A stretch of DNA of 33,081 nucleotides from Lautropia sp. (lineage in GTDB: Bacteria > Pseudomonadota > Gammaproteobacteria > Burkholderiales > Burkholderiaceae_E). A model generated the notes under the pieces. That model saw nothing but the letters and a program-made list of their open reading frames with translations. It was not told the DNA's origin and did not search any database. Position 1 is the first letter of the stretch. Each line of letters begins with the position of its first letter. The position numbers and the translations under genes are program-made. Of this stretch, positions 8,946-19,731 are shown one piece after another. The stretch is taken from the NCBI GenBank assembly GCA_030532425.1, contig JAUNLD010000034.1, positions 1 through 33,081 of the forward strand. Reading direction: 5' to 3'.

Positions 8946-9848
8946 GCGGTCTCCTGGTGGGTGAGAGCGGGACGCTGTCGGGGGACGGCGCCGTGAATCG
9001 TGTGCCGTGGCCGGTGCAGGCCCGGGGCACCTGCTGGCGGCCGTGCGGCCAGCCGGGGGCTGGATGGCCGGTAGGGAAGGCTGCCCGGCTTCCTGACGGG
9101 CTGGGGCCGGCTGGCGGAGGCGCCCGGTGCTCCCGGCGGGCCGAAGCAGGTGGCCCGCCCGCAGGCTGGCGGACTGCCTGGGCTGCTCCGAAGGCGGCTG
9201 TACGGGCCAGACCGGCGGCCCCGATACGGCGTGAAGAGCGGGCTGGCAAGGGATCGGCCATGTCCGGTGGGCTGTGGGCGCCTGCCGGGCAGGACGCCAG
9301 GTTGCCGGCGCAGCCAGGCCGACGCAGGCCGGGACCGGTCCGTCAGCCTGGCTGCGCCCGTGCGCCCCTGCCGTGCACCCCTGGATTGCAGGCCTGCCGC
9401 GGTTCCGGGGAGGCTGCCCTGTGCACCATCGCGGGCGGCATGCACGCCGTGCGGCGACCCGGCCCGGAGCATCGGCAGGCCGCTGGCCGAAGTCATGATG
9501 CCGTGTTTCAGGGGGGTTTGTTGCAATACCGAGGCAGTTTGTAGTGGCATTGTGTGCCCAGCCCTGGTGGTGGGGCGCGGGTGTCATGGCTGACTGGCCA
9601 CGGGTTTCCCCTGATTTGCGTGCGCACCGACCGGGTCGGAACATCCGGGGGCGTCCTGCCGCCGGTCACCCCTGTTTTCCGGCGTCCGGCATGACGCAAC
9701 ACGCATCTGACGGGCGGTCGGCGTCGTACAATCGCCGGCATCATCCTGTCGTCGGCTGCCTGCAACAGGGGGCTTGCCGATGCCTGCAGCCGTTGTTCAC
9801 CCGATCTCCTTGGGCCTTGCCCCCGGCCCTGTTGCCACGAGTCTCATC
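8946..9848. other. 0.9-kb region without a convincing gene, between divergent betB and ABC transporter genes
   Basis: This stretch is very GC-rich and open in several frames on both strands, but none of the translations resembles a known family: they are rich in Gly, Pro, Arg and Ala, as expected from noncoding GC-rich DNA. In particular no BetI-type TetR repressor is seen. The end near the transporter is less GC-rich and has a TACAAT hexamer at 9727-9732 that could be a -10 box, with no good -35. The region must hold the promoters of both divergent operons; I could not place them firmly. Confidence 0.6.
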
Positions 9849-10619
9849 ATGAAAATCATGCGCACGGTTCTTGCTGGTGTTGTCCTTGCTGTTGCCGCAT
9901 CAGGCGCCCAGGCCCGCCCCTGGGCCGACATCCAGAAAAGCGGCACGCTGATCGCCGCCACCGGCGGTGACCTGAAGCCCTTCAACTACTTCGAGGGCAA
10001 GAAGCTGACCGGCTTCGAGGTGGAGCTGACCGACGCCATCGCCCAGCGCATGGGGCTGAAGGTCGAGTGGAAGGTGCTGAGCTTCGATTCGCTGCTGGCC
10101 GGCCTGCAGCGCGATCGCTGGGATCTGGCGATCTCCTCGCATGGCGTGACCGAGGAGCGGGCCAGGGTCGTGGACTTCTCCGACAACCACTATTGCGGTG
10201 GCGCCACCATAGTGGCGAAGGACCCGGCCATCAGCCGGAAGGCCGACCTGGCCGGCAAGACCGTGGCCGTGCAGACGGGCACCACCTTCCTCGCAGCCAT
10301 GCAGCAGGACAAGTCGATCGGCTCGGTGCGCAACTTCCCGCAGGACCGTGATGCCCGCGCCGCGGTCGTCAGCGGCCGGGCCGATGCCTGGGTGACGGAC
10401 AAGTTCGTGGCACTGGAGGCGATCAAGCTGATCCCCGAGGCCGGCCTGAAGATGGGTGAGCAGCTCTTCGTCGAGCGGATGGCCGCTGCCGTGGCCAAGG
10501 GCAACACCGAGCTGCTGGCGGCCTTCAACAAGGGGCTGGCCGAGGTGATGGCCGACGGCACCTACGAGAAGATCTCGAAGAAGTACTTCGACGCCGACAT
10601 CCGTTGCCAGGCCGAGTGA
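9849..10619 (+). CDS. Amino acid ABC transporter substrate-binding protein (family 3)
   Basis: From ATG 9849 this is a 256-residue periplasmic binding protein. Residues 1-22 are a Sec signal peptide (MKIMRT, hydrophobic VLAGVVLAVAAS, cleavage around AQA-RP). The mature domain starts with SGTLIAATGGDLKPFNYFEGKKLTGFEVEL, the standard opening of family 3 (polar amino acid) binding proteins, and continues with VEWKVLSFDSLLAGLQRDRWDLAI and LAGKTVAVQTGTT. A longer frame begins at 9774, but the ATG chosen places the signal peptide correctly. It is followed 39 bp later by the permease. The ligand is probably an amino acid or related amine. Divergence from the bet operon invites a link with choline or betaine, but the family argues for amino acids. 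Confidence 0.92.
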   Translation: MKIMRTVLAGVVLAVAASGAQARPWADIQKSGTLIAATGGDLKPFNYFEGKKLTGFEVELTDAIAQRMGLKVEWKVLSFDSLLAGLQRDRWDLAISSHGVTEERARVVDFSDNHYCGGATIVAKDPAISRKADLAGKTVAVQTGTTFLAAMQQDKSIGSVRNFPQDRDARAAVVSGRADAWVTDKFVALEAIKLIPEAGLKMGEQLFVERMAAAVAKGNTELLAAFNKGLAEVMADGTYEKISKKYFDADIRCQAE

Positions 10620-10658: not shown

Positions 10659-11447
10659 ATGATTGATCTGTTTGCGAAGTGGCCGGCTGGCTGGTCCCGT
10701 CAGGGGCGCAGCACGCTGGCGATCGCCCTGGGCGTGGCCCTGTTGATGCTGGTGCTCTCCTTCATCGACGTGCCGCTGGCCCACCTGCCCGAGCCGATCG
10801 GCTCCAGTGCCGAACAGTTTGCCGAGGGCAGCCGCACCACGGTGATGCTGACGCTGGTCTCGGGGGTGTTCGGCCTGCTGCTGGGCGTGCTGGGGGCGCT
10901 GGGGCGGCTCTCGCGCGTGGCACCGGTGCGCTGGCTGGCCTCCTTCTACATCTGGGTCATCCGCGGCACACCGCTGCTGGTGCAGGTGCTTTTCGTGTTT
11001 CTGGCGCTGCCCGAGCTGGCGCCCTGGCTGAAGCTGAGCGATTTCAGCTCGGCCTGCGTGGCGCTGGCCTTCAATGCCGGCGCCTACAACGCCGAGGCCA
11101 TCCGGGCCGGCCTGCTGGCCGTGCCGAAGGGACAGACCGAGGCGGCACGTTCGCTGGGGCTGTCGAAGTGGTACACCTTCAGGGACGTGGTCTTCCCGCA
11201 GGCCTTCAAGATCAGCCTGCCGGCCCTGGTCAACAACTTCATCGCGCTGCTGAAGGATTCCTCACTCGCCTACGCCATCGGCGTGGTCGAGCTCACCAAC
11301 GTGGCCAACCGCATCCAGTCGGCCACCTTCCAGCCCATCCCGGCGCTGGTCACGGCAGCCGTCATCTACCTGGTGCTCACCACGGTGCTGACGCAGATTT
11401 CCACGGCGGTGGAGCATCGGATGGATGTGGAGGATCGGCGCGCATGA
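10659..11447 (+). CDS. Amino acid ABC transporter permease (HisM/GlnP family)
   Basis: A 262-residue inner-membrane permease of the His/Glu/Gln/Arg/opine family. After an N-terminal hydrophobic helix (~22-38) the transport domain begins at [19 protein letters not shown]. It includes [20 protein letters not shown] and the EAA-loop region [22 protein letters not shown], which docks on the ATPase, then [23 protein letters not shown]. The spacing to the binding-protein gene is 39 bp. Its stop codon overlaps the ATPase start (ATGA at 11444-11447), so the two are translationally coupled. There is one permease only, so it presumably acts as a homodimer. Confidence 0.94.
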
Positions 11448-12211
11448 GCGATCAGGAAAAATTGCAGGACCAGAAGCCGCTGATCGTCGTGCGCGATGTC
11501 TGCAAGGCCTTTGGCCCGCACCAGGTGCTGAAGGATGTCAGTGCCGATTTCATGGCAGGCGAGGTGGCGGTCATTGTCGGCAGTTCCGGCTCGGGCAAGA
11601 GCACCTTCCTGCGGATGCTGAACCGGCTGGAGACGCACGACAGCGGCCGGATCACCATCGACGGCATCCAGGTCGACGACAACCGGCAGCATCTGGACGA
11701 GCTGCGCAAGGAAGTCGGCATGGTCTTCCAGCAGTTCAACCTGTTCTCCCACCTGACGGTGCTGGAGAACCTGACCCTCGCGCCGCGCCGGGTCCGGAAG
11801 CTCTCGAAGGCCGAGGCCGAGGAGCGGGCCATGACGCTCCTGAAGCGCGTGGGCCTGGCCGAGCATGCCCACAAGTACCCCTTTGCCCTCTCGGGCGGCC
11901 AGCAGCAGCGTGTGGCCATCGCCCGGGCGCTGGCCATGCAGCCGCGGGTGATGCTCTTCGACGAGCCCACCTCGGCACTCGACCCCGAGATGGTGCAGGA
12001 GGTGCTGGACGTGATGCGCCAGCTCGCGGCCAGCGGCATGACGATGCTGGTCGTCACGCACGAGATGGGCTTTGCCCGCGAAGTGGCCGACCGCGTGATG
12101 TTCTTCGACGAGGGCCGCATCGCCTTCCAGGCTCCCCCGGCCGAGTTCTTCGGCTGCCAGCACGACCACGCACGGGTCAAGGGCTTTCTCAGTCGGGTGA
12201 TGAGTCACTGA
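11444..12211 (+). CDS. Amino acid ABC transporter ATP-binding protein (HisP/GlnQ family)
   Basis: A 255-residue ABC ATPase with all motifs intact: Walker [10 protein letters not shown] (46-54), Q-loop VFQQFNLF, signature LSGGQQQR, Walker [13 protein letters not shown] and the switch histidine in VVTHEMGFA. It is closest in style to GlnQ/HisP of polar amino acid importers. It starts with ATG 11444 overlapping the permease stop. The C-terminus reads [14 protein letters not shown]. The coding end and following bases (12192-12224) are repeated exactly at 15474-15506, on the other side of a cluster of toxin-antitoxin genes, so this gene's 3' end is the left boundary of an inserted or duplicated region. 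Confidence 0.95.
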
Positions 12212-12224
12212 GGGGCGGGCTTTC
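12192..12224 (+). repeat. Direct repeat, copy 1: 3' end of the ABC ATPase gene
   Basis: These 33 bases, from the codons for the last residues (RVMSH) through the stop codon and 13 bp beyond, are identical to 15474-15506. Weaker similarity extends about 30 bp upstream into the coding region. The copies bracket the AbiE-type and PIN-type toxin-antitoxin genes. Confidence 0.9.
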
Positions 12225-12345
12225 TGGCGGCCGGCATGAGGGAGCGTTTCCGGTGCCGATGGTGATGTACCCCGATTGATCGGCAGGTGGCTCACGGGTA
12301 GCCGCCATGTGCATGAATCAATGAGGAGAAAGAGAGGAGATCCAC

Positions 12346-13254
12346 GTGGCAAGGGGGAAGACCGCGGAAGTGCCGGACGAAGACCGTTTGCGCATCATCA
12401 AGCAGACCGTCATTCTGGCCATGTTCACGGATGATGAACTCTTCGATCAGCTGGTGCTCAAGGGCGGCAATGCGATGGATCTGATTCATCAGACCCATGC
12501 TCGGGCTTCCGTGGACGTGGATTTCTCCATGAGCGGAGATCTGGATAAGGAGGCTGTTCGGCCCCGCATCGAGCGGGCGCTGAAAGAAAGGTTCGCAGAG
12601 CAGGGGTATCTGGCCTTTGACATTTCCATGAGGGAAAAGCCGCGCAGCGGGTTATCCGAGGATCTGGCCCGGTTCTGGGGTGGCTACGAGATTGCATTCA
12701 AGCTCATTTCTCAGGTCAGAGCCAGAGAGCTCAAACAGGATCGGGAGGCGATGCAGCGGGAGGCGATCCGTCTGGCGGGTGTCAGCACGAGGTTTACCAT
12801 CGATATCAGCCGTCATGAATATACGGAGGGCAAGCAGGCTTACGAAATCGAGGGCATGACCATCTTCGTTTACCCGCCGGCCATGATCGTTTGTGAAAAA
12901 CTGCGGGCCATCTGCCAGCAGATGCCGGACTATGGCCCGGTGATCGGGCGTGACGGTGCCGGTTCCCAGCGAGCGCGAGACTTCATCGACATTCATGTCC
13001 TGCTGAATGACCCCCGTTTCCGGGTGGATCTTGCCGATCCAGGTGTTCAGGACATGCTGCGCAAGGTGTTTGAGGCCAAGCGTGTACCGCTGGGGTTGCT
13101 GGGCAATATCCGGGAGACCAGGCTCTTTCATGGCACAGGTTATCCGGGAGTGAAGGCGACCATGCGACCAGGCGTGCCTGTTTTCCCCTTCGATACTTAC
13201 TTCGACGCTGTCCTGGATGCCTGCAAGGCTTTAGAACCCCTCTGGCACGTATAG
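12346..13254 (+). CDS. AbiEii/AbiGii-family nucleotidyltransferase toxin
   Basis: A 302-residue protein of the AbiEii (DUF1814) nucleotidyltransferase-like toxin family. The key motif near the N-terminus reads LKGGNAM (38-44), then RASVDVDFSM (53-62): the GG and D57-x-D59 pattern that binds nucleotide and metal. Later family segments are YPPAMIVCEKLRAICQQ and RARDFIDIHVLL. Known members (AbiEii, MenT) transfer nucleotides to tRNA or other targets and halt growth. The start is GTG 12346, with AGGAGA a few bases upstream; no in-frame ATG precedes it. It lies 134 bp after the ABC ATPase gene on the same strand. The antitoxin-like gene converges on it and the two coding ends overlap by 24 bp, unlike the usual antitoxin-toxin operon. 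Confidence 0.88.
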   Translation: MARGKTAEVPDEDRLRIIKQTVILAMFTDDELFDQLVLKGGNAMDLIHQTHARASVDVDFSMSGDLDKEAVRPRIERALKERFAEQGYLAFDISMREKPRSGLSEDLARFWGGYEIAFKLISQVRARELKQDREAMQREAIRLAGVSTRFTIDISRHEYTEGKQAYEIEGMTIFVYPPAMIVCEKLRAICQQMPDYGPVIGRDGAGSQRARDFIDIHVLLNDPRFRVDLADPGVQDMLRKVFEAKRVPLGLLGNIRETRLFHGTGYPGVKATMRPGVPVFPFDTYFDAVLDACKALEPLWHV

Positions 13255-14118
13255 GCGCCAGCGTTCGTCATAGCGGTTCTTTCCCATGGCATGAGTGAGG
13301 TAGAAGTCCTGCTCCCTGGGGTAGCTTCGGAACAGCTCGATGGCGCTGGCCCTGTAGCCGGCGCGTTCCAGGTAGAAACCGATGGCCTGGTGATAGGGGT
13401 AATGGGGTTTCAGCCTCTTGTAGAGGGCGTTCATGGCATTGACGGAGACCCTGCCCAGGGCGGCCTCGAAGGCCTTGGCCACTTCATGAACACCTCCGGC
13501 ATAGACGGGGCGGATGACGATATCGATCAGCGTGCGTTCCAGACTGGTATAACGCAGATCAAGAGGCCGCTGGCCTCCCAGATTGACCTGATCGCTGATG
13601 ATGCCGGCCCCCTCATGGGCCATGGCATCCAGCAACACGACACGAACCCCCTCTTCCGGCACATCCGCCTGGTTGGTGGACTCCCTCATTGGCTTTCTGA
13701 AACTGGCGTCGATGTCAGCCTGACCGAGAAGAGGTAAGGCTTTGGGGGCACCCCGTTTCTTTTCCTGGCTCAGATAGAGTGTTTTGGGCACCTGCTCGGT
13801 CAGACCGTGCAGGCGAACAGCCGTGTAGTGGCTGTAGTAGCTGCCGGGTACGAGCTGAAGCAGTGTTTCCATCAGCGGAACCCTGCCCCAAGTGTAGCCC
13901 CTGATGGGACGTCGCACCAGATCAATGCTGATCTGGTGAAGCGCAGACTGCTCACGCAGGAAGTCGACAAAGACCTTCTGTGTCTCTTGCTTGCTCAAAC
14001 GCCAGAACCTTCGGTTTTTGCGAACAATATCCTGAAGCGCTGCTTCGCTGAGCACAGACGGACCTTCGGAAAAGGATCGTTCGATATCCGGCAGAGCGAT
14101 CTTCAGTCGTTCAGTCAT
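13231..14118 (-). CDS. AbiEi-like antitoxin of a type IV toxin-antitoxin pair
   Basis: A 295-residue protein resembling the AbiEi family: an N-terminal winged-helix-like region (about residues 15-90, with VLSEAALQDIVRKN and SKQETQKVFVDFLRE), then a conserved core with YYSHYTAVRLHGLTEQVPKTLYL, RPLDLRYTSLERTLIDIVIRP, YAGGVHEVAKAFEAAL, YPYHQAIGFYLERAGY and a C-terminal RYDERWRLYVPEGF. AbiEi proteins neutralise the AbiEii toxin and repress their own promoter through inverted repeats. Two perfect palindromes upstream fit that. There is no Shine-Dalgarno sequence before ATG 14118, and the predicted transcript start leaves only a ~30-base leader. Its 3' end overlaps the toxin gene tail to tail by 24 bp. 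The pairing with the convergent toxin is inference from family and proximity. Confidence 0.85.
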   Translation of the reverse strand: MTERLKIALPDIERSFSEGPSVLSEAALQDIVRKNRRFWRLSKQETQKVFVDFLREQSALHQISIDLVRRPIRGYTWGRVPLMETLLQLVPGSYYSHYTAVRLHGLTEQVPKTLYLSQEKKRGAPKALPLLGQADIDASFRKPMRESTNQADVPEEGVRVVLLDAMAHEGAGIISDQVNLGGQRPLDLRYTSLERTLIDIVIRPVYAGGVHEVAKAFEAALGRVSVNAMNALYKRLKPHYPYHQAIGFYLERAGYRASAIELFRSYPREQDFYLTHAMGKNRYDERWRLYVPEGF

Positions 14119-14129
14119 GTGCCATTAAA

Positions 14130-14161
14130 GTATCGTAAAGGCGTTAACGCCTTTACGATAC
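14130..14161. promoter_or_regulatory. 32-bp perfect palindrome, candidate AbiEi operator 1
   Basis: Each strand reads the same: arms GTATCGTAAAGGCGTT and AACGCCTTTACGATAC meet at 14145/14146 with no mismatch. The core GGCGTTAACGCC is shared with a second palindrome 80 bp away. It covers the -10 box of the leftward promoter for the antitoxin gene and ends 11 bp before its ATG. It fits autorepression by the AbiEi-like protein. Confidence 0.8.
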
Positions 14162-14183
14162 CATTTTGAACTTGTTTTGTCAA
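14155..14183 (-). promoter_or_regulatory. Sigma70-like promoter for the AbiEi-like gene
   Basis: On the minus strand, consensus TTGACA (14183-14178), a 17-bp spacer and TATCGT (14160-14155). The -10 box lies inside palindrome 1. Predicted transcription begins near 14148, about 30 bases before the start codon. Confidence 0.7.
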
Positions 14184-14216
14184 GAGGGTAAGTAATTGAA
14201 TCCATTGATAATCCTG

Positions 14217-14245
14217 TTGACATGACAAGGTTTTTGTATTACATT
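14217..14245 (+). promoter_or_regulatory. Rightward sigma70-like promoter with no intact gene directly after it
   Basis: TTGACA (14217-14222), a 17-bp spacer and TACATT (14240-14245). The -10 box overlaps the left edge of palindrome 2, mirroring the leftward promoter. Downstream there is only a 20-codon frame (ATG 14277, stop ending 14339) and then an antisense hipA remnant. The next real gene is the antitoxin of the PIN module near 14654, which has its own promoter. Confidence 0.65.
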
Positions 14246-14271
14246 AACAGGGCGTTAACGCCCTGTTAATG
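14242..14271. promoter_or_regulatory. 30-bp perfect palindrome, candidate AbiEi operator 2
   Basis: Arms CATTAACAGGGCGTT and AACGCCCTGTTAATG meet at 14256/14257 without mismatch. The core GGCGTTAACGCC equals that of palindrome 1; the outer arms differ, but both contain TAA/TTA blocks. It overlaps the -10 and start region of the rightward promoter. The two centres are 111 bp apart, so one protein could bind both and shut both promoters. Confidence 0.8.
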
Positions 14272-14367
14272 CTTATATGATGTGTGCCAGATATCGTACG
14301 GGGGGTGACTTGATTGCCCATGCTGCCAGCACTTCATGACGTTCTTCGGGCGGCTGCAGGGCCGGCT

Positions 14368-14620
14368 TCATGTGCCAGCTGGCAGCATGTGCTGGACGGC
14401 TTTCATCAGCCTCCTGATCGTGGTCTTTCGGATCGGAGGATCCTGGGCCAGTGCCATCAAACTATCTGTCAGGGCTTCGGCTATCCGCTGCTGACGTGGG
14501 CCGATGGCAGCCCATCGCGTTGCTGCAGGCCGTCGCGGGATGGGAGCAGGCTCAAGCGCGGATGCGTCTTGCGATGAGGCGTCATTGCCAGCTGCTTGAA
14601 GGAGTCCACCGAGGAGACGT
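14368..14620 (-). pseudogene. Decayed 3' end of a hipA gene
   Basis: On the minus strand the last ~40 codons read PRQQRIAEALTDSLMALAQD, then PPIRKTTIRRLMKAVQHM. They match the C-terminus of the intact HipA encoded at 15622-16848 (PRQRAEAIIDRMLTQADSLM, then ALAQDLPIRKATIRRLMKTV), with a short internal deletion. At DNA level 14374-14460 matches 15634-15720 with only a few differences (57 of 60 in 14401-14460). Further upstream the frame stays open to about 14620 with at best faint HipA similarity, and there is no start codon. It is a remnant, not a gene. The differences suggest it came from a related hipA rather than a very recent copy. Confidence 0.8.
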
Positions 14621-14641
14621 ACAATTGATAATCAAGTGTAC
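14596..14641 (+). promoter_or_regulatory. Promoter and operator of the PIN-type toxin-antitoxin module
   Basis: TTGAAG (14596-14601), an 18-bp spacer and TACAAT (14620-14625) form a good sigma70-like promoter. An almost perfect 23-bp palindrome covers 14619-14641: arms GTACAATTGAT and ATCAAGTGTAC around a central A, with one mismatch. It overlaps the -10 box and start point. That is the usual place for autorepression by a VapBC-type complex. Confidence 0.65.
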
Positions 14642-14653
14642 GTCAGTCTGTTC

Positions 14654-14905
14654 ATGCAAACCAAGCTCACCCTGCGGCTGGATGCCGAGCTGATTGCCAT
14701 TGCCAAGGCGCAGGCCCGGCGCAATGGCAAGTCGCTGTCGGCTTTTGTGGCCGACTATTTTGCACAGTTTGCGCCGCCACCCGAAGCGTCTTCACTGTCC
14801 CTGCCGCCCATCACATCGTCGCAGGTGGGCGTGCTGAGAAAAGGCAACGCTGCTCCCCTCGATGAGGCCGATTACCGGCGCCATCTGGAGGACAGATACC
14901 TGTGA
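14654..14905 (+). CDS. Small DUF6364/RHH-like antitoxin of a PIN module
   Basis: An 83-residue protein beginning MQTKLTLRLDAELIAIAKAQ, followed by ARRNGKSLSAFVADYFAQF. This is a short beta-strand followed by two helices, the ribbon-helix-helix pattern of DUF6364/VapB-type antitoxins. The C-terminal half (PPITSSQVGVLRKGNA and on to LDEADYRRHLEDRYL) is the flexible toxin-binding tail typical of such proteins. ATG 14654 is chosen because it places the strand at the N-terminus; an in-frame GTG at 14636 lies inside the operator palindrome. No strong Shine-Dalgarno sequence is visible. The stop overlaps the GTG start of the PIN gene (14902-14905). Confidence 0.85.
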   Translation: MQTKLTLRLDAELIAIAKAQARRNGKSLSAFVADYFAQFAPPPEASSLSLPPITSSQVGVLRKGNAAPLDEADYRRHLEDRYL

Positions 14906-15354
14906 GCCTGCTGCTGGATACCAACGTGATCCTGGATGTCTGGTTGCAGCGAGAACCGCATGTCGAGGACAGTGCGCGGGTGATGGCGCTGGTGGAAGAA
15001 GGCGAGGTTCGGGCAAGCCTGTGTGCCACCACGCTGACCACGCTGTTCTATCTGGGGCAGCGCGTCCTCGGTGCGGATGGGGCCCGTCGTCAGATCGAGG
15101 CATTGCTCAGGCTGTTCTCGGTGGCGCCGGTGAATCGGGCGGTGCTCAGCGAGGCACTGGGCAGCCGGTTCGCCGATTTTGAAGATGCGGTACTGCATGA
15201 AGCGGCGCGCCATGCGGGCTGTCAGGCGATCATCACCCGCAACACGGCCGATTTTGCCAGCGCATCACTGCGCATCCACACGCCAACCCAGTATCTGCAA
15301 ATGCACCGGATGAGCCTGCATGAGAAAGCAGCCCGGTATCGTTCAGAGGGCTGA
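14902..15354 (+). CDS. PIN-domain ribonuclease toxin (VapC-like)
   Basis: A 150-residue PIN-domain protein. The acidic metal-binding residues are visible: D6 in LLLDTNVILD, the DFEDAVLHEAA segment (D92, E94, D95), and D117 in ITRNTADF. VapC-type toxins cleave tRNA or rRNA and are silenced by the antitoxin encoded just upstream. The GTG start at 14902 overlaps the antitoxin stop, so translation is coupled. The protein is somewhat longer than the ~130-residue VapC norm, with a C-terminal HTPTQYLQMHRMSLHEKAAR extension. The active site looks intact. It lies between the hipA remnant and a duplicated end of the ABC ATPase gene. Confidence 0.92.
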   Translation: MSLLLDTNVILDVWLQREPHVEDSARVMALVEEGEVRASLCATTLTTLFYLGQRVLGADGARRQIEALLRLFSVAPVNRAVLSEALGSRFADFEDAVLHEAARHAGCQAIITRNTADFASASLRIHTPTQYLQMHRMSLHEKAARYRSEG

Positions 15355-15440
15355 GGGAGATCCAGAAAAGGCCAGGGGCGACGACACTTCTGGCTGCGCC
15401 AGAGCCTGTGCCGGTTCTGAACTGAGGTCTCTCTGCTGCG

Positions 15441-15506
15441 GGCAGGACAACGCCCACGTCAAGGTGTTTTTCTGTCGGGTGATGAGTCACTGAGGGGCGG
15501 GCTTTC
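15441..15506 (+). repeat. Direct repeat, copy 2: orphan 3' end of an ABC ATPase gene
   Basis: In frame this reads DNAHVKVFFCRVMSH and stop, against [15 protein letters not shown] and stop in the intact ATPase. The last 33 bp (15474-15506) are identical to 12192-12224, while the upstream part has diverged. No ATPase gene precedes it, so it is a fragment left by duplication or recombination. It marks the right border of the AbiE/PIN segment. Confidence 0.85.
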
Positions 15507-15621
15507 CGCCAGTTCATGTTGGCCAGTCAGGACGGGAGCGAGATCACCCGCGCGAGGCGCCTCGTCAGCATGTGGCCAGTGTGGGGGGCGAATCAGCACA
15601 TGACACGTTCCATCATGACCG

Positions 15622-16848
15622 TCATGCGCCGGCTGCCAGCTGGCAGCAGTGCTGGACGGTTTTCATCAGCCTCCTGATCGTGGCCTTTCGGATCGGAAGA
15701 TCCTGGGCCAGTGCCATCAGGCTGTCAGCCTGGGTCAGCATCCGATCGATGATGGCTTCGGCACGCTGGCGGGGTATCGAGCTTTCTGCCGCCAGTTGCA
15801 GCAGGTGGTCGCGTGTCACCTGGCTAGCCTCTCCACAGACATCCATGTGGTGCTGTCCTCTGGGCCCCTCGCTGAACGTCAGGTCGAAGGCAGGGGCCAG
15901 GTGCCAGTGTCCGTCCGAAGACAACCGCCAGGCGACATTCTTGGGGTGGTCGTCACGATTGTGAAACAGTACGTTGAAGACGGTGCGTTCGTAGGCGCGC
16001 TCTACTTCGTGTTCTGAACGGCACAAGGCGCGTGTTGCACGCAGGAAACTGGTGTAGTCCGCGCTGCCGGGCAGACGGAAGTCGATGTGCAGCAGACCCG
16101 CCAGGCTGTGGATGGGCACCCGCAGGCCGTCTTCGCGGTCGAAGCGCGCCGTGCCAAAGGCTGACAGGCGGGGGGACAGGTCAAACACCTGGCTGTCGGG
16201 AACCTCCAGTCCGCACCGGCGTGCCAGCAGCATGTAGAGCTGTTCCAGAGCGCAGACTTCCTTGTGTTCGCCCTGGGCCGGAAACTTCACCAGCCACGGT
16301 TGTGCGGAGGCTTCGGGGACGGTGCTGATACGCCTGCTGTCCGGGTTGTACCAGACCAGCGCCTTGGGACGGGCACCCTGGGGTGAGCCGCCCAGGGTGC
16401 CCAGTTCGCGCAGGGCTGCGTCGGCCTCTCCACGCAGGGTGCGTGCACTTTCTTCGGCCAGGGCCAGCAGACTCCAGTCCGGGATGGGGGTATCGGCCGC
16501 CGTATCGGGCACGAATCGCAAGGCCCCCATGCCTCGATCGCCGATAAAGGCCAGTCGATCCAGCGGACCCGGGTGGCGCACACCTTGTTGACGGAAGAGG
16601 CGGTCCATCAGCAGCAGGCCCCAGCCGTCGGGCAGGCTGTCGGCCACCAGACCGGGCAGGTGATGCTGGTGGGCCGGAAAACCGCCCATGACGCCTGCGC
16701 CCAGCTTCAGCCGCAAGGGCGATAGCATCATGCCCCGGGCCAGAGCCTGTGCTGACCATGAAAAGAGGATGTCATGGCCATCGTCGAGCAACTCTCCCAG
16801 CAGCCAGTCCTCGCCCCAGCCACAGTAATGGACGAATATCTTCTTCAC
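15622..16848 (-). CDS. hipA: HipA-family serine/threonine kinase toxin
   Basis: A 408-residue full-length HipA. HipA kinases phosphorylate targets such as glutamyl-tRNA synthetase, causing growth arrest and persistence. Visible landmarks: the N-terminal subdomain with LPGLVADSLPDGWG; the flexible P-loop LGGSPQGARPK (152-162), where S155 is the likely autophosphorylation serine; K188 in WLVKFP, the likely ATP-binding lysine; the catalytic loop FHNRDDHPKN (295-304); and the metal-binding aspartate D322 in APAFDLTF. All look intact. Its ATG overlaps the end of hipB (ATGA at 16845-16848). The last ~90 bp are duplicated in decayed form at 14374-14460. Confidence 0.95.
   Translation of the reverse strand: MKKIFVHYCGWGEDWLLGELLDDGHDILFSWSAQALARGMMLSPLRLKLGAGVMGGFPAHQHHLPGLVADSLPDGWGLLLMDRLFRQQGVRHPGPLDRLAFIGDRGMGALRFVPDTAADTPIPDWSLLALAEESARTLRGEADAALRELGTLGGSPQGARPKALVWYNPDSRRISTVPEASAQPWLVKFPAQGEHKEVCALEQLYMLLARRCGLEVPDSQVFDLSPRLSAFGTARFDREDGLRVPIHSLAGLLHIDFRLPGSADYTSFLRATRALCRSEHEVERAYERTVFNVLFHNRDDHPKNVAWRLSSDGHWHLAPAFDLTFSEGPRGQHHMDVCGEASQVTRDHLLQLAAESSIPRQRAEAIIDRMLTQADSLMALAQDLPIRKATIRRLMKTVQHCCQLAAGA
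15634..15720. repeat. hipA 3'-end repeat, intact copy
   Basis: These 87 bp, inside the intact hipA, match 14374-14460 with one indel and a few substitutions. Weaker similarity continues past the hipA stop to about 15595 (versus about 14323). The block order (ABC end, then hipA end) occurs twice in this window. Confidence 0.8.
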
Positions 16849-17171
16849 GGGAGGCTCCTGCGTCGGGCGCTGCGGCGTGGTGCGCGCTGGCGCTCGCGTG
16901 CGCTCAGGATGCGTTCGGCTTCGGCCAGGGTTCGTCGCCGAGGCAGGAACAGCGGATCCAGCTGATCGGTGAGGCCGAGAGCCACGGCCACGCGCACGAC
17001 GGTTTCGAGGGAGGACTGGCCGTTGCGCTCCAGCTTGCGCACGGCACCCAGCGACAACCCGGCCATGATGGCCAGCTCCTGCTGGCTGAGTGCCTGCAGC
17101 AGCCGCTGCGTGCGCAGGCGTTCGCCCAGCGTTTGCAGGATCTCGGCATGAGAGGCCAGGATAAAGTCCAT
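16845..17171 (-). CDS. hipB: HipB-family antitoxin, HTH XRE type
   Basis: A 108-residue protein with an XRE/Cro-type helix-turn-helix at about residues 28-52 (LSQQELAIMAGLSLGAVRKL, then ERNGQ), and a basic C-terminal tail rich in Arg (RQRAPRRSARRRSL). HipB proteins bind HipA and repress the hipBA promoter. It precedes hipA with a 4-bp overlap, the standard HipBA order. TTTAWNCCGG-like repeats upstream are a plausible binding site. It is longer than E. coli HipB (88 residues) because of the basic tail. Confidence 0.92.
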   Translation of the reverse strand: MDFILASHAEILQTLGERLRTQRLLQALSQQELAIMAGLSLGAVRKLERNGQSSLETVVRVAVALGLTDQLDPLFLPRRRTLAEAERILSARERQRAPRRSARRRSLP

Positions 17172-17245: not shown

Positions 17246-17482
17246 TCACTGCTCACGCTGTTCCATTTGGGGCTTCCTGTCCAGACGCGCCAGAATCGAC
17301 AGCGCCAAGTTGGGATCGCCCTGGGCGGCCATGGCGCGGAACCGACTCTCGGCATCGAAGGCGGCAATCGCCTGCACGTTCAGTTCTTCCTCCAGTTTGT
17401 TCACGCTCAGGCCTCGGCTCTTCGCCAACAGCTTCAGGCGTTGCGCAGTGTCATCCGGCAGGCGGATCGTCAGGGTGCTCAT
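17246..17482 (-). CDS. Orphan ribbon-helix-helix antitoxin-like protein
   Basis: A 78-residue protein starting MSTLTIRLPDDTAQRLKLLA with KSRGLSVNKLEEEL, a clear ribbon-helix-helix fold of the CopG/HicB-antitoxin type. The rest (FRAMAAQGDPNLALSILARL, then DRK) resembles antitoxins usually paired with a PIN-family toxin. No toxin follows: the next gene downstream is hipB, 75 bp away. The ATG lies five bases after the stop of the FUSC-family gene, so it appears to be translated with that gene. Either the partner toxin was lost, or the protein now works as a stand-alone regulator. Confidence 0.8.
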   Translation of the reverse strand: MSTLTIRLPDDTAQRLKLLAKSRGLSVNKLEEELNVQAIAAFDAESRFRAMAAQGDPNLALSILARLDRKPQMEQREQ

Positions 17483-17487
17483 GGTGT

Positions 17488-19731
17488 TCAGGCACGCTGG
17501 CGTTGTGGGCCGCTTGCCTCGGCACTTTCCAGGGCATCTTCCATCAGCATCAGCACGCGGGCGGCGTCGCTGCGGATCTGGATGGCGATGCCGGTGGAGG
17601 CATCGAGCCGGCGCATCAGCCAGGGGTTGATCTGGGTTTCGAAGGGATCGGGGAGGATGGCGCGCTCGCCGAGTGAGCCGGCCGGGGTGGCGTCGCCGAT
17701 GACGTTGGCCAGAGGGACACCGGCCAGTTTGCGCTCGATGCGGTCGACGGCAAAGGCCAGGGCTTCGCTGGCTTCGGGGATGTTGAGGCGGTCGCGCCGC
17801 AGCACCAGCAGGGATTTGACGGCGCTCAGCTGCGCCAGCAGCTGATAGCAGTGTACCTGCATGTGTTGCAGGGCTTCGACCGGCGGGCGCACGGCGCGTG
17901 GCTCGGAGAGCGAGCGCTGGGTGGCCTGCACCAGGGCCGACAGGCTGTCGAAGGCTTCACGGCGGGCGAGGCGCCATTCCAGTTCGGGGGTGGATTCGAC
18001 GGAACCCAGCTGCGCAGGATCAAGAGCCAGGCGGGCGTGGCGCAGCTGGGCATCGAGGGTGCGGCGGACCACGGCCGGGATCTGGCCACGCTCCCACGAG
18101 GGCAGGATGTAGCAGAAGGCCCAGGCGACGGCCGCGCCGATGATGGTGTCGGCCAGGCGCTCGAACAGGGTGAAGGCGGCGGTGTATTCGCCATAGCCGA
18201 CCAGGTGGGCCTGGATCAGGCCCAGCACGGTGCCGGCTACCGAGGTGATGAGGTAGCGGCGCTGGGCAAAGCTGTGGGCGATGCTCTGGGACAGCATCAT
18301 CACCACCACGTAGACGATCAGGCTGGGGTGCAGGGCCATCAGGCCCATCGCCAGGGCGCAGCCGAACAGTGTGCCGGCCACGCGCTGGTTGCGGCGCTCC
18401 AGTGTCTGCGACAGGCTGCCGCGCAGCACCTGTGCGACCGTCAGCAGGATCCAGTAGGGGTGGCTGCCCCCCCAGGGCAGGTTGACCGAGATGGCATAGC
18501 CGACGGCGATGGCCAGGGCGGCGCGGATGGCGTGACGCAGCTGCGGGGTCTTCCAGCTCCAGACCGACAGGATCGGCCCCCAGGACCAGGCGGTGGGGCT
18601 GACGAACATCTGCCATTTGGCGCGGACCACGGCCAGATTGGGGGTCTGTTCACCGCGGGCGGTACCTGAGAGGCGCAGGATTTCGTCGTTGATGTGGCCG
18701 ATGCGGTGGGCAATGCCGCGCACCAGCATGGCAGGGGTGGGGCCAAGCACCATGCCACCGGCTTCGGCATCGCTGATCGAGCGGATGGTGGCGATGCGGT
18801 TGCGGCGATCGATGGCCGGGCGGGGGCGGTAGCCCAGTACCAGTGCATCGGCGATGGCCGTGACTTCATCGGCCAGCTCGTCCAGTATCCGCCGCATCTG
18901 CGCCAGCGCATGACGATGGCGGGGATGGGTGCGCAGGGTCTCCAGATCCAGCTCGCTGGCCAGCAGGTTGTCGCGGATGTCGAAGACGATCACCAGCATG
19001 CCGGCCAGCCGCTGCCGGTAGGGGGTACGGGGCGATTCGAGGACCACGTCGCGGGCGGCCTGCATCTGTTCGGCCAGGGCGGCCTGTGCGCGCAGCAGTT
19101 CACCCAGGAGCGCGTCGTCGGCCTGACGGTCCTCGGTCCTGCGGTGCTGGAACTGCCGGGCCTCGGTGCGGATCAGGCTGGCGAGCGAGGCCAGCGTCTC
19201 GGCCACCATCAGGGCGCGGTAGCGGGCATTGAGGGCCAGGTTGGCGAGGGTGGCCCACAGCACGTACAGGCCCGCGCCGGTGGCAAAGTAGGTGGTGGCG
19301 CGCAGCGAGGGGGAGAGGCCGGGTTCGCCATGCGTGGCCATCGAGAAGATGGCGGTCAGCATCAGTCCCATCGCCACCTGCACGCCGCGCTTGCCCCAGG
19401 CCATGGCCAGAAAGGCCAGGAAGGCCAGCACCGTCAGGAAGATCCCCAGCTCCAGTGGATGGCCATTGAGCATCTGCACGGCGTAGAACACCGGGATGCC
19501 GAAGAGGAAGGCCGGCAGCAGGCTGCGCAGCTTGCCGCGGCGCGGACCGACGACATCGCTTGGGGTGGCGGCGATGACGCCGACCGTGGCCACCGAGGCC
19601 GCATAGGCGCCCAGCCAGTGGTCGACCAGCAGCGAGATGCAGAACAGGCCCAGGCCGGCGGTGATTCCGTTGGTGACGTAATGGCTGAGCAGGATGCGCA
19701 GGACGTCGCGCAGGCGGGAGGCGGGTTTCAT
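17488..19731 (-). CDS. FUSC-family inner-membrane protein (YccS/YhfK-like)
   Basis: A 747-residue membrane protein with two hydrophobic blocks (residues ~15-160 and ~390-530, each with several membrane helices), separated by a long helical cytosolic stretch and followed by a helical C-terminal domain. The second block contains the FUSC-type pattern RAALAIAVGYAISVNLPWGG, then HPYWILLTVAQVLR, and ERRNQRVAGTLFGCALA. This is the architecture of YccS/YhfK and aromatic acid or fusaric acid exporters. The substrate is unknown. The upstream gene on the same strand is a thioredoxin-like protein, 106 bp away with a hairpin in between; downstream is the coupled RHH gene. Confidence 0.88.
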   Translation of the reverse strand: MKPASRLRDVLRILLSHYVTNGITAGLGLFCISLLVDHWLGAYAASVATVGVIAATPSDVVGPRRGKLRSLLPAFLFGIPVFYAVQMLNGHPLELGIFLTVLAFLAFLAMAWGKRGVQVAMGLMLTAIFSMATHGEPGLSPSLRATTYFATGAGLYVLWATLANLALNARYRALMVAETLASLASLIRTEARQFQHRRTEDRQADDALLGELLRAQAALAEQMQAARDVVLESPRTPYRQRLAGMLVIVFDIRDNLLASELDLETLRTHPRHRHALAQMRRILDELADEVTAIADALVLGYRPRPAIDRRNRIATIRSISDAEAGGMVLGPTPAMLVRGIAHRIGHINDEILRLSGTARGEQTPNLAVVRAKWQMFVSPTAWSWGPILSVWSWKTPQLRHAIRAALAIAVGYAISVNLPWGGSHPYWILLTVAQVLRGSLSQTLERRNQRVAGTLFGCALAMGLMALHPSLIVYVVVMMLSQSIAHSFAQRRYLITSVAGTVLGLIQAHLVGYGEYTAAFTLFERLADTIIGAAVAWAFCYILPSWERGQIPAVVRRTLDAQLRHARLALDPAQLGSVESTPELEWRLARREAFDSLSALVQATQRSLSEPRAVRPPVEALQHMQVHCYQLLAQLSAVKSLLVLRRDRLNIPEASEALAFAVDRIERKLAGVPLANVIGDATPAGSLGERAILPDPFETQINPWLMRRLDASTGIAIQIRSDAARVLMLMEDALESAEASGPQRQRA

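Follow-up and report, generated by a model that had tools for sequence, protein, structure and literature searches.

The spread of defence genes is often attributed to mobile elements, and in islands of the e14/icd type the attachment site at a gene end is present twice. Oliveira et al. 2017 describe hotspots in which no mobile element is recognisable and the core genes at the flanks recombine frequently; in the available part of their text they propose double homologous recombination at the flanks and report an over-representation of such hotspots in transformable species (PMC5635113). The rpiA-trmE site of Streptococcus suis is a variable defence locus in a species that, in the accessible passages, is said to become competent (Okura et al. 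2017, PMC5398294). Here we analyse a stretch of 33,081 nucleotides from Lautropia sp. (contig JAUNLD010000034.1, assembly GCA_030532425.1), referred to as the window, in which an island of toxin–antitoxin (TA) genes lies between the ABC ATPase gene of an amino-acid transport operon and a gene for a FUSC-family membrane protein. We consider it likely that this ABC–FUSC site is a hotspot of TA and defence genes that grew by allele exchange between related lineages and was left with gene-end scars.

The window cargo is flanked by a direct repeat of a gene 3' end as in the e14/icd type; unlike that type, no integrase was found and the repeat is missing from a relative whose cargo is the same. The locus fits a homologous-recombination hotspot as described by Oliveira et al.: it combines variable cargo that includes defence genes, fixed border genes with incongruent trees in approximately unbiased (AU) tests, and no integrase or mobile element found in the window island. 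It differs from the hotspots in the available part of that text in that truncated gene ends persist in the island, and one locus in nine genomes is examined here (PMC5635113). With S. suis rpiA-trmE it shares a single chromosomal site with defence genes differing by lineage, while genes and organism are different and gene-end scars are not mentioned for S. suis in the passages available (PMC5398294).

The genus sample comprises nine genomes including that of the window (G000), with one genome per species and a single strain of the window's species. Eight of the nine could be placed at the locus; G004 is a fragmentary assembly with no close ABC copy. Gene calls and domain matches bear out the order given by an earlier sequence-only reading (ABC end, AbiE pair, hipA-end remnant, PIN module, ABC end, hipA), as follows:

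9774..10619, +, substrate-binding protein (SBP) of an amino-acid ABC transporter, G006-like from 9905 (PF00497; 94.2% to G006)
10659..11447, +, ABC permease (PF00528; 93.3% to G006)
11444..12211, +, ABC ATPase, complete, left border gene (PF00005; 94.5% to G006)
12150..12224, +, repeat A copy 1, ABC ATPase gene 3' end plus 13 nucleotides (copy comparison, shuffles)
12346..13254, +, AbiEii toxin, nucleotidyltransferase family (PF08843, E=1.3e-23)
13231..14118, −, AbiEi antitoxin, convergent with AbiEii (PADLOC AbiEi, E=1e-16; no Pfam match)
14373..14474, −, repeat B copy 1, hipA 3'-end remnant in front of PIN (95% to 15634-15719)
14636..14905, +, DUF6364 protein, by position the likely PIN antitoxin (PF19891)
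14902..15354, +, PIN-domain protein (PIN_3), likely toxin (PF13470, E=2.5e-28)
15356..15431, no strand, junction between G006-like block and second ABC end, no source found (similarity searches, shuffles)
15432..15506, +, repeat A copy 2, truncated ABC ATPase 3' end (copy comparison, shuffles)
15622..16848, −, HipA, complete (PF07804, PF13657)
15634..15734, −, repeat B copy 2, inside complete hipA (copy comparison)
16845..17171, −, HipB-type HTH protein (PF01381)
17246..17482, −, RHH protein with weak Pfam matches at or below cut-off (homologue directly after the ABC gene in G005)
17488..19731, −, FUSC-family membrane protein, right border gene (PF12805/PF13515; trees)

Ancestry of the block and content of the site

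Between 9905 and 14276 the window is 93.0% identical to G006 (4385 columns), and between 14479 and 15355 it is 94.0% identical (878 columns). Outside this block the identity is 83% in the ALDH gene on the left and 75% in FUSC on the right, where G006 and G005 share 88%. The sampled background identity of G000 and G006 is 84.6% over 13.1 kb, taken from seven matches of at least 800 nucleotides. In segments of 250 nucleotides compared with G006, G005, G007 and G001, G006 is the closest relative in 7 of 22 to the left of the block (one more is tied), in all 9 between 10001 and 12250 and in 1 of 9 in FUSC, which becomes 0 of 9 when G003 is counted. Trees show the same switch. In both ALDH and FUSC, G006 groups with G005 and the window stands outside; grouping of the window with G006 is rejected by the AU test (p=0.0008 for ALDH and p=4e-7 for FUSC). 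For SBP, permease and ABC ATPase combined, the window groups with G006 with 98% support, and the AU test rejects G006 with G005 (p=0.022).

The sequence-only reading had proposed an exchanged copy from a relative, by which it meant the diverged hipA remnant and second ABC end. An import is indeed seen, but as judged from similarity the part clearly imported is the first copy, with ABC operon, AbiE and PIN of G006 type, and not obviously the second. In the G000 assembly the ABC ATPase gene has a single close copy; the import would therefore have replaced the native operon or filled a gap, and we infer replacement.

The interval between ABC ATPase and FUSC differs in gene content among the eight placed genomes, and the site is therefore a hotspot of gene content. 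One genome is empty here and one is without the operon, while the rest carry TA, defence-like or metabolic genes. G002 has an empty site with 40 nucleotides from ABC to FUSC. G007 carries an NmrA-like gene, and G005 an MFS gene and, about 20 nucleotides past the ABC match, a relative of the RHH gene. In G006, AbiE and PIN are followed by 13.9 kb with RtcR-like, VWA, kinase, helicase-type AAA_11/AAA_12, AAA and DUF2357 genes. G003 has a DUF4351 gene, a cassette homologous to that of G006 and a relative of the lactate permease of G001. G008 lacks ABC operon and island: on its contig L163 (3270-3811) about 0.5 kb separates ALDH from FUSC, and no ABC gene was found in this interval.

The cassette shared by G006 (L031:12516-18754 and L032:21-3001) and G003 (L036:8360-18812) consists of a kinase, a long AAA_11/AAA_12 helicase-type protein with an MkoA-like PADLOC match, a wHTH-type protein scoring just below its cut-off, an AAA ATPase and a DUF2357 protein. 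All five genes are homologous between the two genomes at 40-65% protein identity, and the cassette is possibly a composite Mokosh/McrBC-like defence system.

A strain with the ABC gene directly before hipA had been named beforehand as a test of allelic recombination, and G001 is such a strain. Its site holds a hipA pseudogene, lactate permease, IS66, DHDPS, a GntR aminotransferase and two unscanned open reading frames (ORFs). The ABC gene ends at L035:14910 and the hipA-end match starts at 14889, about 20 nucleotides past the ABC stop (blastn 6.6e-16; tblastn E=3.7e-8 for HipA residues 348-407). This hipA is broken into collinear pieces in different frames that resemble HipA residues 32-51, 303-316, 358-383 and 384-404. 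Scores are 7.2 bits for the first piece, 7.0 bits for the third and below zero for the other two; the pseudogene call is carried by the order of the pieces and the blastn match. ABC adjoining hipA is probably an older arrangement in the genus.

The duplicated gene ends

Both repeats exist where the sequence-only reading had placed them, and neither score is matched in any of 500 dinucleotide shuffles. Repeat A joins 12150-12224 with 15432-15506 at 84% over 75 nucleotides. Its final 33 nucleotides are identical (12192-12224 and 15474-15506): 12 of 42 sites differ in the first part and 0 of 33 in the last (Fisher p=0.0007, an optimistic value as the border was picked after the identical run was seen). 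This diverged stretch followed by an identical one suggests a further short exchange. Over the 42 nucleotides of copy 2, ungapped identities are 30 with copy 1 of the window, 29 with G003, 28 with G006, G005 and G001, 25 with G002 and 22 with G007. The second ABC end sits just past the G006-like block, within 80 nucleotides of the end of the PIN gene. It was found in none of five relatives tested (G006, G005, G007, G001 and G003), where the longest shared run reported was 11 nucleotides.

Repeat B joins 14373-14459 with 15634-15719 at 95%; an ungapped match of 14389-14474 with 15649-15734 reaches 90% over 86 nucleotides. The first hipA end has a one-base insertion relative to hipA, and strong similarity ceases near 14460-14474. 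The divergence that the sequence-only reading saw in hipA remnant and second ABC end is uneven.

Six further similarities around the joints were put through the same shuffle test. A run of 14 identical nucleotides links the junction between PIN and ABC end (15398-15411) to the 5' part of hipA (16739-16752); it stands in the order and orientation of a hipA relic and is borderline, with 1 of 500 shuffles as good. The HipA profile gave no supported hipA scrap over 15355-15520 (best E 6.2). The other candidates were not significant: 14475-14640 against hipA (86 of 500 shuffles as good), 14277-14372 against the spacer 15507-15640 (112) and against the ABC 3' region 12000-12340 (42), 15355-15440 against the ABC end (318) and 15507-15620 against 12225-12345 (256).

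Mechanism and competing explanations

We propose that the hotspot would operate without an integrase of its own, with cargo entering in chromosomal DNA of related lineages through homologous crossovers within the conserved genes at its borders. ABC-AbiE-PIN DNA of a G006-like relative would have recombined into a lineage with a different FUSC allele. The left crossover would be homologous and lie somewhere in 8.9-9.9 kb, which is a bracket only. The right end would have been joined illegitimately near 15.36-15.43 kb, beside an ABC 3' end ahead of the resident hipA-hipB, so that the ABC end and the hipA end would each remain twice. In the simplest reading, the second ABC end may have survived from the native ABC gene, the rest of which the incoming operon replaced. 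Homology-facilitated illegitimate recombination, homologous at one end and illegitimate at the other as outlined in the accessible text, would yield the structure of the window, although here it is deduced from one contig and no microhomology was identified at the right joint (PMC3240628). A ComEC domain occurs in 7 of the 9 genus genomes and DprA in all 9; judged by gene content, transformation is possible in the genus.

Several observations weigh against this proposal. G000 is a draft in 125 contigs with 88.8% completeness, an entire contig makes up the window, and the analysis uses the assembly without reads. SBP alone and permease plus ABC alone give 89% support each, weaker than the flanks. 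The second ABC end has no clear match to lineages other than G006 over just 42 nucleotides, and its last 33 nucleotides are identical to the G006 type. G006 is without most of the first hipA remnant and seems to retain a short tail. For the right edge, the bracket extends from 15355 to FUSC; the hipA unit may have come in with the import, and the double structure could already have existed in the donor, with the right edge further right. Other patches of about 94% to G006 occur in the parts of the genome that were sampled.

One such patch, L139:5795-8031 of G000, is 94% identical to G006 (neighbouring matches 76-80%), 90% to G005 and 85% to G007. Conservation may explain part of it; as G005 and G007 too resemble G000 closely in this stretch, such patches alone are no proof of exchange.

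Recombination between related alleles, as first suggested from the sequence, is supported by the variable site, the ABC-hipA remnant of G001, the ancestry switch, the lack of a phage-type integrase (PF00589) on the contig and the missing repeat in five relatives. The sequence-only reading saw ABC end and hipA end as one unit present in two copies; that this unit was duplicated cleanly in one event is not shown. A tandem duplication in place, from the ABC 3' end into hipA, would make the scars the ends of the duplication, with AbiE entering copy 1 and PIN replacing most of the first hipA. The alternating order of the two ends fits, and the 14-nucleotide hipA match lies at the expected joint in the right order and orientation, but this match is the strongest among six weak similarities tested, and the HipA profile does not support it. 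The ancestry switch is left unexplained, though the duplication could have occurred in the donor, and we regard this history as unlikely. We also doubt, if a little less, that the 33-nucleotide ABC 3' end is a recurrent docking sequence at which defence cassettes were stacked by crossovers within ABC 3' ends. If this were true, the island would keep a ladder of scars (ABC end, AbiE, hipA end, PIN, ABC end, hipA), and the diverged 42 and identical 33 nucleotides of repeat A would be a crossover footprint.

Site-specific integration, with the 33-nucleotide repeat as attachment core and 12225-15506 as a small AbiE and PIN element mobilised in trans, would account for identical sequences flanking 3.2 kb of cargo at a gene 3' end and for similarity that ends sharply beyond. 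However, G006 carries the same AbiE-PIN cargo without a second copy, the other four relatives tested have no second copy either, and 31 of the 33 nucleotides have no exact match in viral contigs, so that the attachment-site model was rejected. As the sequence-only reading had noted, no integrase or transposase is visible: none of these families was found among the scanned ORFs of the island, ten further island ORFs (12.6-16.8 kb) match no Pfam family, and PF00589 is absent from the contig, its three matches in the assembly lying on other contigs, with serine recombinases not searched genome-wide. An integrase together with a repeat at both borders that recurs in relatives was thus not found, and we hold integration to be very unlikely. 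IS66 in G001 places mobile DNA at this site in one relative. Literature searches for islands that grow without an integrase and contain duplicated pieces of genes led to nothing beyond archaeal recombinases, and those on Lautropia genomic islands to nothing of use. An assembly artefact, in which the contig fuses two species or strains, is suggested by the draft state, the whole-contig window and an ancestry that changes twice, and 33 nucleotides is a k-mer length in some assemblers. It would require two independent false joins, while G006 shows ABC-AbiE-PIN linkage, G001 shows ABC-hipA adjacency, and 15.36-15.43 kb has no evident similarity to the continuation in G006; we consider it very unlikely as well.

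The AbiE pair and the meaning of the scars

TA function of the window pairs is presumed from their families only. An AbiEi-type antitoxin gene stands beside an AbiEii nucleotidyltransferase gene, and HipA domains are joined by an adjoining HipB-type HTH gene; HipA relatives reach at most 68% in most of the matches listed. A Lautropia contig (L118) matches HipB and the start of HipA but has neither ABC nor FUSC, and is no proof of anything concerning the window. The AbiE genes are convergent with a 24-bp tail overlap (12346-14118), and convergent also in G006. In both genomes the pair thereby departs from the rule for type IV AbiE systems, in the available part of the source a bicistronic operon with the antitoxin gene first (PMC3985639). 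On plasmids, the genes are convergent in all 8 records common to the best 10 of 37 and the best 10 of 38 matches. These records we take to belong to proteobacteria, Bacillota, Bacteroidota and Planctomycetota. Convergent AbiE is perhaps a distinct type. At E<=1e-20, AbiEii occurs in 1 of 274 genomes of the class sample, the window's own, and also in G006, which is outside that sample; no AbiEii relatives were confirmed in viral contigs. Two palindromes lie upstream of abiEi:

14123..14165, no strand, palindrome with core GGCGTTAACGCC, candidate AbiEi operator
14243..14275, no strand, second palindrome with the same core GGCGTTAACGCC, candidate AbiEi operator

These are the two matches of the core, a number reached in none of 100 shuffles. 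The arms of the first palindrome differ in G006 by compensating changes, and both are candidate AbiEi operators.

The process proposed for the ABC–FUSC site is already known; what sets this case apart is that the gene-end scars are unusually readable. Scars and ancestry switch at one locus would record TA cargo arriving through chromosomal allele exchange, and a genome-wide search for gene-end scars could serve to trace cargo that was stacked without an integrase.

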